From assembly GCA_000430305.1 (NCBI GenBank), contig ASZZ01000006.1:1-64000 (forward strand): a stretch of 64,000 bases of DNA, read 5' to 3'. This stretch comes from Streptococcus mitis 17/34. GTDB taxonomy: Bacteria > Bacillota > Bacilli > Lactobacillales > Streptococcaceae. This document shows positions 20,561 through 63,289 of this stretch, piece after piece (positions within the stretch are counted from its first letter, which is position 1; each line of letters starts with the position of its first letter). The notes under the pieces are model-generated. The model was given only the letters and a program-made list of their open reading frames with translations, did not search any database and was not told the origin of the DNA. Made by a program: the position numbers and the translations under genes.

Positions 20561-20844
20561 AAGAAATTACCTTTGACGCATTTTACCAGCTTTATCAAAA
20601 CGACCAACTTTCTCTAGTGGACGTGCGAGAAGTGGATGAGTTTGAAACACTTCATTTAGAAGGTGCCCACAACCTACCGCTTAGTCAATTGGCTGATACC
20701 TTTGATCAGTTGGACAAGGACCAGTTGCATTATGTTATTTGCAAATCTGGAATGAGATCGGCGCGTGCTTGTCAATTCCTAGCTGAACAAGGTTATGAGG
20801 TTATCAATGTTCAGGGTGGCATGTTAGCCTTTGAAGAACTTTAA
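20557..20844 (+). CDS. Rhodanese-like domain protein
   Basis: A 95-residue single-domain rhodanese. VDVREVDEFETLHLEGAHNLP is the CH2A region, and the active-site loop CKSGMRSA carries the catalytic Cys near residue 67. It likely carries persulfide sulfur in the cytoplasm; the acceptor is unknown. It overlaps the UDG-like gene (ATGA), so it is translationally coupled. A strong terminator follows. Confidence 0.88.
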   Translation: MKEITFDAFYQLYQNDQLSLVDVREVDEFETLHLEGAHNLPLSQLADTFDQLDKDQLHYVICKSGMRSARACQFLAEQGYEVINVQGGMLAFEEL

Positions 20845-20853
20845 ACAGTAGAT

Positions 20854-20897
20854 TTTCTCCTACTCGGTATGGACTGGGTAGGAGAGTTTTATTTTTA
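20854..20897 (+). terminator. Terminator after the rhodanese gene
   Basis: TCTCCTAC (20856-20863) and GTAGGAGA (20878-20885) form a stem, followed by TTTTATTTTT. Confidence 0.8.
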
Positions 20898-36029: not shown

Positions 36030-37003
36030 GAAAACCAAAGATAACGGTGATTGGTGGAGGGACTGGGATCCCCGTCATTCTTAAAAGTCTACGTGAAAAA
36101 GATGTGGAAATCGCTGCTATCGTAACGGTGGCGGATGATGGCGGTTCATCAGGTGAACTCCGAAAAAATATGCAACAATTGACACCGCCAGGTGACCTCC
36201 GTAATGTCCTTGTGGCCATGTCGGATATGCCTAAGTTTTATGAGAAAGTCTTTCAGTATCGCTTTTCTGAGGATGCCGGAGCCTTTGCTGGTCATCCGCT
36301 GGGAAATCTCATTATTGCAGGCCTGTCAGAAATGCAGGGTTCGACCTATAATGCCATGCAGTTACTGAGCAAATTTTTCCATACAACAGGGAAAATTTAT
36401 CCTTCCAGCGATCATCCTTTGACCCTTCATGCAGTCTTTCAGGATGGGACAAAAGTGGCTGGAGAGAGTCATATTGCAGACCATCCAGGCATGATTGACC
36501 ATGTCTATGTGACCAATACTCTCAATGATGATACACCTCTGGCTAGCCGTCGAGTTGTGCAGACCATTCTTGAAAGTGACATGATTGTCCTAGGGCCAGG
36601 TTCCCTCTTTACCTCTATTTTGCCCAATATTGTCATTAAGGAAATTGGTCGAGCGCTTTTGGAAACCAAGGCAGAAATCGCCTATGTCTGCAATATCATG
36701 ACCCAACGTGGGGAGACGGAACACTTTACAGATAGTGATCACGTGGAAGTCTTGCATCGTCACCTTGGCCGACCTTTTATTGATACGGTCTTGGTGAATA
36801 TCGAAAAAGTGCCACAGGAATATATGAATTCCAACCGTTTTGATGAATACTTGGTGCAGGTGGACCATGATTTTGCTGGTCTTAGTAAGCAAGTTCCGCG
36901 TGTGATTTCATCCAACTTCCTTCGTCTGGAAAATGGAGGTGCTTTCCACGATGGGGATTTGATTGTGGATGAGTTGATGCGGATTATACAGGTGAGAAAA
37001 TGA
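36026..37003 (+). CDS. yvcK: YvcK/CofD-like cell-morphology and carbon-control protein
   Basis: A 325-residue CofD-fold protein. [15 protein letters not shown] is the N-terminal nucleotide-binding loop; [12 protein letters not shown] and [14 protein letters not shown] follow, and [14 protein letters not shown] lies near 190. YvcK binds UDP-sugars and is needed for growth on gluconeogenic carbon sources and correct cell-wall synthesis in Bacillus. ATGA overlap with rapZ on one side and with whiA on the other shows tight coupling. Confidence 0.92.
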
Positions 37004-37910
37004 GTTTCACAGTAGCAGTAAAAGAAGAAATCCTAGGTCAACACCATCTGAGCCGGCATGAATTATCTGCCATTATCAAGATGTCTGGTAGTATCGGTCT
37101 CTCAACTTCGGGCTTGACCTTGTCAGTTGTGACAGAAAATGCCAAGCTGGCTCGTCACCTCTATGAGTCCTTTCTCCATTTCTATGAAATCAAATCAGAA
37201 ATTCGCCACCACCAAAGAAGTAATCTTCGCAAGAATCGGGTCTATACTGTTTTACAGATGAAAAGGTACAGGACTTGCTGAGTGATTTGCACTTGGCGGA
37301 CTCCTTCTTTGGCCTGGAAACAGGTATCGATGAGGCGATTTTATCAGACGAGGAAGCAGGTCGTGCTTATCTCTGTGGTGCTTTCTTGGCAAATGGGAGT
37401 ATTCGTGACCCTGAATCAGGTAAGTACCAGTTGGAAATCAGTTCTGTTTATCTAGACCACGCGCAAGGGATTGCCTCTCTTCTCCAGCAATTTTTACTGG
37501 ATGCTAAGGTGCTTGAGCGCAAAAAGGGGGCTGTGACCTATCTCCAGCGTGCCGAAGATATTATGGACTTCTTGATTGTCATCGGAGCTATGCAGGCGCG
37601 CGATGATTTTGAGAGAGTAAAGATTTTGCGGGAAACTCGTAATGACCTCAATCGGGCCAACAATGCCGAGACAGCTAATATCGCTCGGACAGTTTCTGCC
37701 AGCATGAAGACCATCAACAATATTAGCAAAATCAAAGATATTATGGGCTTAGAAAATCTGCCAGTGGATTTGCAGGAAGTGGCGCAGCTGCGGATTCAGC
37801 ATCCAGACTACTCAATCCAGCAGTTAGCAGATAGCCTCAGCAACCCTCTGACCAAAAGTGGTGTCAACCATAGACTTAGAAAGATAAACAAGATTGCCGA
37901 TGAGTTATAA
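37000..37910 (+). pseudogene. whiA: WhiA sporulation/division regulator homologue, frameshifted
   Basis: DNA-binding protein with a LAGLIDADG-like N-terminal domain and a C-terminal helix-turn-helix ([21 protein letters not shown]). The frame is lost near 37251 because one T is missing from a T run; correction restores [21 protein letters not shown]. The full protein is then about 303 residues, as usual. The N-terminal [16 protein letters not shown] and the [20 protein letters not shown] block (about residue 125) are intact. In Bacillus WhiA influences cell division. It is third in rapZ-yvcK-whiA. Confidence 0.92.
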
Positions 37911-37930
37911 AGATATAAAACACCTCTTTC

Positions 37931-37960
37931 TTGACAATTGAATAGAGCATGTGAGATAAT
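37931..37960 (+). promoter_or_regulatory. Promoter of the antitoxin RNA
   Basis: TTGACA (37931-37936) and the extended -10 TGA-GATAAT (37952-37960) are separated by 18 bases. A strong promoter for a short RNA with no reading frame is what a type I antitoxin needs. Confidence 0.7.
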
Positions 37961-37966
37961 AAAGAG

Positions 37967-38038
37967 GAATTGAGAAGTTCTAGCATTTTAGTGCTAAAAC
38001 AGAAATCCCCTCGGTACTGCAATACCAAGGGGATTTTT
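37967..38038 (+). ncRNA. Antisense antitoxin RNA of an Fst/par-type locus
   Basis: A predicted RNA of about 72 bases from the promoter at 37931-37960 to the terminator at 38003-38038. It contains the 17-base sequence TTGAGAAGTTCTAGCAT (37970-37986), which recurs exactly at 38146-38162, where it is the complement of the toxin start region (AUGCUAGAACUUCUCAA). It also has TTAGTGC, complementary to the toxin 5' leader, inside a small TTTTAG-CTAAAA hairpin. The RNA can thus pair with toxin mRNA at the start codon and at the shared terminator, the layout of RNA II in par of pAD1. Not tested experimentally here. Confidence 0.7.
38003..38038. terminator. Shared bidirectional terminator of toxin and antitoxin RNAs
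   Basis: AAATCCCCT and AGGGGATTT form a nine-base stem extended by GGTA/TACC around CTGCAA, with T residues on the plus strand and T residues (from GAAA) on the minus strand. Convergent transcripts therefore both end here and are complementary over this hairpin. Confidence 0.75.
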
Positions 38039-38066
38039 CTGGGTTAGATAGCACTAACCAGGAAGG

Positions 38067-38162
38067 TTACTTGTCGAAGTGATCGTCTAACCAACGAGTC
38101 ACCAGCCATGAGATGATACTCTCGATGACTGCGATAAGTACTATTTTGAGAAGTTCTAGCAT
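38067..38162 (-). CDS. Fst-like type I toxin peptide
   Basis: A 31-residue peptide beginning MLELLKIVLIAV, with a hydrophobic helix through about residue 20, then WLVTRWLDDHFDK. One membrane span followed by a charged tail with WLDD fits the Fst/par family of membrane-acting toxins. A very strong RBS (AAAGGAGG) lies eight bases upstream. The mRNA leader has CCTT able to cover that RBS. GCACTAAC near its 5' end is complementary to GTTAGTGC in the 3' region, so the two ends of the mRNA can pair. It lies between whiA and the ferredoxin-NADP reductase gene. Confidence 0.72.
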   Translation of the reverse strand: MLELLKIVLIAVIESIISWLVTRWLDDHFDK

Positions 38163-38206
38163 CTGTAATACCTCCTTTTCCAAGGCGTATCGTTAGTGCC
38201 ATTGTT

Positions 38207-38215
38207 ATTATATCA
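38207..38215 (-). promoter_or_regulatory. Toxin promoter (extended -10)
   Basis: On the minus strand TGA is followed by TATAAT (38207-38212). The -35 is weak (TATCAA at 17 bases). The predicted transcript starts near 38200 and runs about 190 bases to the shared terminator. Confidence 0.6.
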
Positions 38216-38304
38216 CATGCTGTATCAGTTTGATAGGACATTTTTACTTTTTGAAAAAAGAAGGGTAAAGGTATGAGTTAACCAGATAGCTGATGAACTA
38301 TAAA

Positions 38305-49048: not shown

Positions 49049-49172
49049 ACTCAAGGGAGTAGCTGGCAGAAACCTGTGATAGTGTCGTCATTCCGAATTT
49101 TATACTGAAAAGTATGCTTTCCGGCCCTATCTTAAACAGCGAGACTTGTTATGATTAACAGGTCTCTTTTTG
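49049..49172 (+). promoter_or_regulatory. yybP-ykoY manganese riboswitch with terminator
   Basis: CAAGGGAGTAGC near the 5' end and CTTTCCGGCCCTA near the 3' end are the conserved L1/L3 parts of the yybP-ykoY aptamer. GAGACTTGTT (49141-49150) and AACAGGTCTC (49157-49166) form a terminator with five T residues. High Mn(II) should favour aptamer folding and read-through into the P-type ATPase, as shown for pneumococcal mgtA. About 70 bases then lead to the RBS. Confidence 0.85.
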
Positions 49173-54921: not shown

Positions 54922-55101
54922 ATGGAGGACAAAGAAATAGGTTTTTATATGATGCTTGCTTCAATGCTACTTGGATTGTTTGATTTGAAGATAGGTTTTT
55001 CTCAGTTTAAGGAGAAAAAAGATAAATTCTTATCTATCTTAACAAGCTTAACTGGCACAGCCCTTGTTCTCGTGGCTATCTGGTTAGGATGGCCTAAATA
55101 A
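54922..55101 (+). CDS. Small membrane protein upstream of yaaA
   Basis: A 59-residue protein not overlapping any other gene. Two hydrophobic helices (about 8-21, FYMMLASMLLGLF; 38-57, SILTSLTGTALVLVAIWLGW) are separated by a charged loop (FKEKKDK). TATAAT at 54898-54903 lies just before it; the RBS is poor (AAGGGAAT). ATGs at 54949 and 54952 are alternative starts, which would shorten the protein by nine or ten residues. A terminator follows directly. Function unknown. Confidence 0.65.
   Translation: MEDKEIGFYMMLASMLLGLFDLKIGFSQFKEKKDKFLSILTSLTGTALVLVAIWLGWPK

Positions 55102-56260: not shown

Positions 56261-63289
<7,029 letters not shown>

Follow-up and report, generated by a model that had tools for sequence, protein, structure and literature searches.

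Between whiA and the ferredoxin-NADP reductase (FNR) gene of Streptococcus mitis 17/34, a small locus was found which is very probably a par-type type I toxin-antitoxin module brought to the 3' end of whiA by an MM1-type prophage, of which little else is left. The stretch of DNA that was analysed, here called the window, is 64,000 nt long (contig ASZZ01000006.1, positions 1-64,000, plus strand). The most likely explanation for the locus is that a prophage addiction module outlived its prophage. Three features seen in the sequence support this: attachment (att) cores that bracket a 393-bp insert, homology of the insert to the repressor/cro switch region of streptococcal prophages, and direct repeats that co-evolve between toxin and antitoxin. 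A preliminary description of the locus had presented it as a chromosomal par system. The copy at whiA does lie in the chromosome, but it has the appearance of a module left behind by a prophage between MM1-type att cores, and this prophage origin was overlooked. The par systems, prophage scars and the att site at whiA are each already known. The parts of the locus are as follows (positions in the window).

37896-37910, plus strand: attL-like core GCCGATGAGTTATAA, formed by the last codons and stop of whiA, with two mismatches to the MM1/PPH080 core
37911-37928: probable remnant of the phage left end, AGATATAAAACACCTCTT, which in alignment corresponds to the phage side of the MM1 att junction
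37925-38269: stretch with homology to the DD10 prophage's lysogeny-switch region, reaching the ribosome-binding site of a short cro-like frame
37931-37960, plus strand: antitoxin promoter TTGACA-18-GATAAT with TG, 11 of 12 consensus matches (promoter scan)
37967-38038, plus strand: predicted antitoxin RNA of about 72 nt, its ends inferred from the promoter and terminator position
37970-37986, plus strand: direct repeat DRb, TTGAGAAGTTCTAGCAT, inside the antitoxin
38003-38036, both strands: shared terminator hairpin (sequence, scan and folds)
38051-38058, minus strand: 3' arm of the helix closing the toxin mRNA ends (centroid fold)
38067-38162, minus strand: gene of a toxin-like, hydrophobic peptide of 31 amino acids, MLELLKIVLIAVIESIISWLVTRWLDDHFDK (open reading frame list and sequence)
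38146-38162, given as plus-strand letters: direct repeat DRa, TTGAGAAGTTCTAGCAT, over the toxin start codon
38171-38176, minus strand: toxin ribosome-binding site AGGAGG, 8 nt before the ATG and partly paired in the leader hairpin
38192-38199, minus strand: 5' arm of the helix closing the toxin mRNA ends (fold)
38207-38212, minus strand: toxin promoter -10 TATAAT with TG, extended -10 TGATATAAT (read from sequence)
38289-38303, plus strand: attR-like core GCTGATGAACTATAA, after which comes host sequence as at the empty site

The elements named in the preliminary description were all located where it had placed them, namely the 31-amino-acid minus-strand open reading frame (ORF) at 38067-38162, its ribosome-binding site, the hairpin, the 17-nt repeat (DRa and DRb are identical at 17 of 17 positions) and the complementary ends of the toxin mRNA (GCACTAAC/GTTAGTGC at 38051-38058 and 38192-38199).

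According to published work (PMC8637289, PMC7600539, PMC10383233, PMC12637031), phage MM1 and the prophages of group PPH080 have their attachment site at the 3' end of whiA, with the core given in Table 4 of PMC8637289, and a core is annotated at this position in the MM1 attR record. The window holds two MM1-like cores with two mismatches each, at 37896-37910 and 38289-38303, which are 393 bp apart and coincide exactly with both junctions to the empty-site sequence. No integrase gene or other phage gene was found in the window insert, which contains the toxin-antitoxin module only. A search of 284 genomes of the genus detected homologs of the toxin in 29 at E <= 0.1, of which 22 reached E <= 2.7e-4; the other seven are doubtful. 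Sixteen of the 22 clear-homolog genomes, the window's included, carry the homolog beside whiA, with the FNR gene close behind in 11, farther behind other DNA in four and a contig end in one. The attR core was recovered in 11 of these 16 copies and the attL core in 15, with up to four mismatches.

A survey of the whiA site was performed in 118 genomes, and the best 30 matching loci, including the window's own, were read. Fifteen sites were empty, with the next gene after 37-41 bp. The remainder held a window-type module (six), two other par modules (one, genome G138), prophage ends (one, G198) or other DNA (seven). A resident chromosomal toxin-antitoxin system with a role in the host, for which the neighbourhood of the att site would be incidental, might be suggested by the homologs beside whiA in 16 of 22 genomes and by the par loci known on core genomes (PMC7472228). 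The empty site in half of the 30 loci, the insert ends at the att cores and the phage-like flanks make such a system highly improbable.

Traces of larger elements were observed at the same site. At whiA, G198 has an integrase and an apparent endolysin tail, separated by one N. In five relatives (G151, G268, G293, G181 and G140) the scar is 72-76 bp longer than that of the window, and contains, in phage order, 15-31 nt of phage-end sequence (28 identical nt in G151) and 16-20 nt of MM1-type integrase DNA. These scraps bear on a second alternative, in which the insert is a miniature att-flanked cassette moved by a phage integrase in trans and not the remnant of a deletion. Its small size, the att cores on both sides and the sharp empty sites would fit such a cassette. 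We consider it very unlikely, as the phage-ordered scraps in the five relatives look like stepwise deletion, although no systematic search for the same insert ends at other att sites was made.

The interior of the insert resembles the lysogeny switch of related phages. An alignment of the block at 37925-38269 with the switch region of the DD10 prophage has 313 identical columns out of 348 and runs from the antitoxin promoter as far as the ribosome-binding site of the cro-like frame, and 48 bp of the antitoxin promoter region are 92-94% identical to pneumococcal phages. In phages Javan254 and Javan290, as in the DD10 prophage, homologs have a repressor and an integrase close by. Away from whiA, homologs were found in strains DD10 (G244) and 121 (G264) and in G306, G106, G134 (two copies) and G089. 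Those of DD10, 121, G306 and G106 and one copy of G134 are situated among phage-like genes beside repressor-like frames, as read from the ORFs; an integrase relative was found near the homologs of DD10, G106 and G134, the G106 region and phage Javan254 of S. himalayensis HTS2 have their ORFs in common, and the G089 homolog has phage-like genes on one side. Flanking phage genes without a cited annotation were named from their letters. The genomes with homologs include S. mitis, S. hohhotensis, S. thalassemiae and Streptococcus strains 121, DD10 and SPS1.

Pneumococcal phage SF39 has two annotated Fst loci in its switch region, between the repressor and the early genes. The whiA insert of G138 matches this pair at 91-93% over 478+149 bp; its first toxin gene is interrupted by about 100 bp and its left junction is the same as that of the window. 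The SF39 integrase is 100% identical over 343 amino acids to the integrase of an IMG/VR contig that lies beside an MM1-like phage end, and the G198 integrase at whiA is 96% identical to it. Two kinds of module between common flanks at one scar suggest that cassettes may be exchanged by recombination. A PPH010-type core occurs within about 1 kb in 21 of the 30 canonical Fst loci listed (L037-L066), exact in 20 and with one mismatch in one. Canonical Fst is not proposed as a general marker of phage att sites, the toxin being beside and not between the cores in the window's genome (L046) and in D39.

The 17-nt repeat alone is weak evidence of a par design, and its co-evolution in relatives is strong evidence. 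Across 1000 first-order Markov shuffles of 37931-38215, repeat length peaked at 13 nt and none reached 17 nt; among 671 overlapping 285-nt tiles of the window, a repeat of at least 17 nt was present in eight, one being this locus. Co-evolution was examined in 13 loci, by scoring the stretch around each toxin start against every antitoxin region. The loci were the window, five others of window type (DD10, 121, L025, Javan254 and L028), Javan290, four canonical phage Fst loci, one canonical Fst locus from the window's own genome and the distant L029. Toxin starts paired with their own antitoxin scored 14.1 on average, compared with 7.1 for cross pairs, and 0 of 20,000 permutations reached the observed sum. 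The own pair was the best or tied in 12 of the 13 loci, and its score was above all 200 shuffles in 11. Each toxin start thus tends to fit the antitoxin of its own locus best, and the repeats co-evolve.

The predicted folds agree with such a design. The toxin mRNA folded better than 200 of 200 shuffles (z -4.7), as did the antitoxin (37967-38040; z -5.2), and 7-9 of 9 pairs of the helix closing the toxin mRNA ends were kept across nine sequences. The shared bidirectional terminator of the preliminary description was recovered: the hairpin at 38003-38036 folds on both strands, but a consensus terminator scan flagged the minus strand only, and in our own reading of the plus strand the T run is partly inside the stem. 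The proposed par/Fst design was thus borne out by anatomy, by folding and, above all, by the co-evolving repeats of the 13 loci. The plus-strand RNA could otherwise be an ordinary trans-acting small RNA (sRNA) opposite a peptide ORF that is open by chance, which the lack of peptide family matches would allow. This is extremely unlikely given that the peptide is conserved to phage relatives (nonsynonymous divergence, dN, 0.19 and synonymous divergence, dS, 0.71 to strain 121), that its ribosome-binding site is strong, and that a co-evolving repeat lies over its start.

A number of observations weigh against a par-type module of prophage origin. At up to three mismatches, about three att cores are expected per shuffled window and three were found; because so short a core is expected by chance, the argument rests on its position at the junctions. 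The pieces of integrase are short (best E 7e-5 to 0.035), no streptococcal phage was found with a 78-nt scrap probe that had been typed as a mixture of two relatives, and integration of SF39 itself at whiA is putative. Promoter-like sites were not more numerous than in shuffles (2 found, 2.4 expected), so that the antitoxin promoter match alone proves nothing, and the toxin promoter was not reported by the promoter scan, nor was a good -35 seen. The leader had been said to be able to hide the ribosome-binding site; the predicted hairpin does cover it, but the 72-nt leader folded alone was not better than shuffles (z -0.87, 34/200). Among the repeats, the DD10 toxin start fits the window antitoxin slightly better than its own (17 versus 16), the second SF39 toxin start scores 14.5 with its own antitoxin and 13.0 with those of L025 and Javan254, and for Javan254 and L029 the score of the own pair was equalled in one or more of the 200 shuffles. 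The window and DD10 are near-duplicates, as are L025 and Javan254, so the effective number of loci is about 11.

The same holds for the assignment of the toxin to a family and for its codon changes. None of six window-type toxins matched either Fst model, Pfam PF13955 or NCBIfam NF033608, at E <= 10. All four canonical toxins matched both, one of them under the curated cut-off in each. The P/D/S/TxxxG helix motif, present in the majority of Fst/Ldr members according to PMC7472228, is absent; in an alignment of six members, AVIES / ESIIS stands in its place in the window, the PxxxG position reading AxxxS with an acidic residue within the helix. PMC7472228 describes PxxxG as essential in Fst of pAD1. 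Among DD10 and 15 of the 16 chromosomal copies, nine nonsynonymous and three synonymous changes were counted against 219 and 60 possible, and no constraint on the peptide was visible.

The peptide had been described as divergent within a locus of Fst/par design. The standard profiles do not place it in the Fst family; the tryptophan before its charged tail is present. This tryptophan, between the hydrophobic helix and the tail (RWLDDHFDK), is a signature of the superfamily (PMC7472228) and was kept in five of the six aligned members, with leucine in Javan290. An hhalign comparison with canonical streptococcal Fst gave a score of 21.4 and a probability of 69%, with the two tryptophans out of register; 0 of 100 column-shuffled profiles reached that score (maximum 19.1). 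The window toxin is probably a far relative of Fst, to go by these alignments, and was not filed as Fst. Run over 279 genomes of the genus, PF13955 found a canonical Fst in the genome that the window comes from (G000, contig 1), and the window locus was not among its matches at E <= 0.1. Weak matches to unrelated Pfam families were obtained for two of the six window-type toxins (E 0.02-0.03). No match to the toxin at E <= 10 was obtained in a PDB profile search or among plasmids, and 50,697 phage records gave two at that threshold, Javan254 (E 1e-4) and a chance-like mycobacteriophage. These results point to a group of phage-borne toxins that is overlooked by Pfam and NCBIfam and lacks the motif held to be essential in Fst.

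The chromosomal copies differ in how far their parts are preserved. The antitoxin -35, which served as the search anchor, was found in all 16 whiA copies; the antitoxin -10 was identical and the terminator stem present in 16 of 16, and DRb was identical in 15. The toxin is damaged in four to five copies (start codon lost in three, which may be one event, frame broken in one and -10 changed in one), with TATAAT kept in the other 15. In G140, the only copy with an altered antitoxin repeat, the toxin is also out of frame. The preliminary description had named breakage of both the repeat and the peptide frame in relatives as evidence against the module; the outcome was mixed, since 16 or 17 of the 17 repeat positions were kept in all 16 copies, but the toxin start was lost in three and the frame in one, with the antitoxin retained. 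When relatives away from whiA were compared, dN was below dS, with values of 0.043/0.16 to DD10, 0.19/0.71 to strain 121 and 0.34/0.59 to Javan254. The numbers behind these observations on decay are small.

The toxin damage, together with the 9:3 codon changes and the interruption of the first G138 toxin gene by about 100 bp, would suit a dead fossil, in which the prophage origin is right, neither RNA is functional now and the locus looks intact from its recency only. This alternative shares the origin with the explanation preferred here and differs from it on present function. The identical antitoxin -10 in 16 of 16 copies, DRb in 15 of 16 and the intact state of every listed part in the window copy speak against it, and we regard it as unlikely, if to be kept in mind.

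In the surviving addiction module that we favour, the plus-strand RNA would block translation of the toxin mRNA by pairing over its start codon, with a kissing contact at the terminator loops. The closed ends and the leader hairpin would keep the toxin mRNA stable and silent, and free toxin would act on the membrane. Within a prophage, such a module would penalise cells that lose the element; in the chromosome it may persist since loss of the antitoxin would be safe only once the toxin has gone. An anti-addiction role has been proposed for chromosomal type II systems. A scar with the antitoxin kept and the toxin sometimes disabled could likewise be a standing anti-addiction site, where cells survive the loss or curing of prophages with a matching toxin and where phage cassettes are swapped via the shared promoter flanks. 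This extension is speculative and rather improbable; if true, it would be the RNA counterpart of type II anti-addiction. Steps from phage to chromosome can be read at one att site, from prophage ends (G198) through scraps (five genomes) and the short scar (window and others) to scars with damaged toxins. Addiction and anti-addiction can both be put to the test here, at an attachment site that is well known for phages. What par-type loci do in chromosomes is described as still obscure in PMC7472228.

Several further observations were made at and around these loci. In the window, whiA is split into overlapping frames at 37000-37281 and 37275-37910, and is one open frame of about 312 codons in close relatives; the split is either a frameshift or an assembly error of the draft genome, and a repeat search in the frameshift region found none. 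In G148, G152, G070, G107 and G001 the attR side of the module is replaced by another block of DNA, which is also present at whiA in G141 and G144 and seems to hold a gene for a secreted protein. A repeat element of about 107 bp, which we take to be RUP, is inserted in or behind the 3' end of the toxin gene in L018 and L024 (G070 and G140). The second G134 copy (L118) is flanked by yajC-like and uppS-like genes with phage genes out of view, and is possibly another chromosomal copy at a different site. The DD10 prophage contains, upstream of the window-type module, a second par-like module with another toxin type, HPLVVALAPVILTWLLDKYSDED (L130, 3078-3620). Below-threshold Rfam matches at the locus (RsaJ, SpF66, His_leader, PyrR, fstAT at E 4.7 and others) look like terminator noise and were rejected. 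Elsewhere in the window, Rfam sRNAs were found at 20753-20892 (SpF22), 49050-49171 (SSRC10) and 55053-55097 (SpR20), and direct repeats of up to 59 exact nt at 57191-57760.

In the literature consulted, the candidate list of Fozo 2010 being outside its scope, neither a par module filling the MM1/whiA att site in Mitis-group chromosomes nor a toxin type without PxxxG was found. The insert lies between two copies of the core, like prophages of the MM1/PPH080 kind with their attB at whiA (PMC8637289, PMC7600539, PMC12637031); unlike them, it carries the module without an integrase or other phage gene. Among known toxin-antitoxin systems, fst-Sm/srSm of Streptococcus mutans (PMC3543317) shares the par design, with a toxin of 32 amino acids, and also the mobile-element setting, being located in the integrative and conjugative element TnSmu1 beside the repressor pair immRA (PMC10233336). 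As a further parallel, its region is induced upon repressor depletion (PMC10233336). It differs in sitting in a whole element. The pneumococcal Fst loci srf-07, srf-27 and srf-28 of D39, described as omitted by earlier annotations and filed as Fst family (PMC6212727), are, by their description, of the same genus and design. The Fst loci of phages SF39 and IPP63 share antitoxin- and toxin-promoter flanks and the position in the switch with the window module, and SF39 has an MM1-type integrase, but their toxins are canonical Fst (GPIVVG, LPLVVG). Compared with par of pAD1 (Fst/RNA I/RNA II; PMC7472228), the window module is chromosomal and inside an apparent prophage scar, its toxin is without PxxxG or an Fst profile match, and its RNA behaviour is predicted. 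It shares with that system the convergent RNAs (here predicted), the single terminator, the direct repeats over the toxin start, the closed mRNA ends, the leader hairpin at the ribosome-binding site and a small hydrophobic peptide with a charged tail, preceded by tryptophan as in most of the Fst superfamily (PMC7472228).
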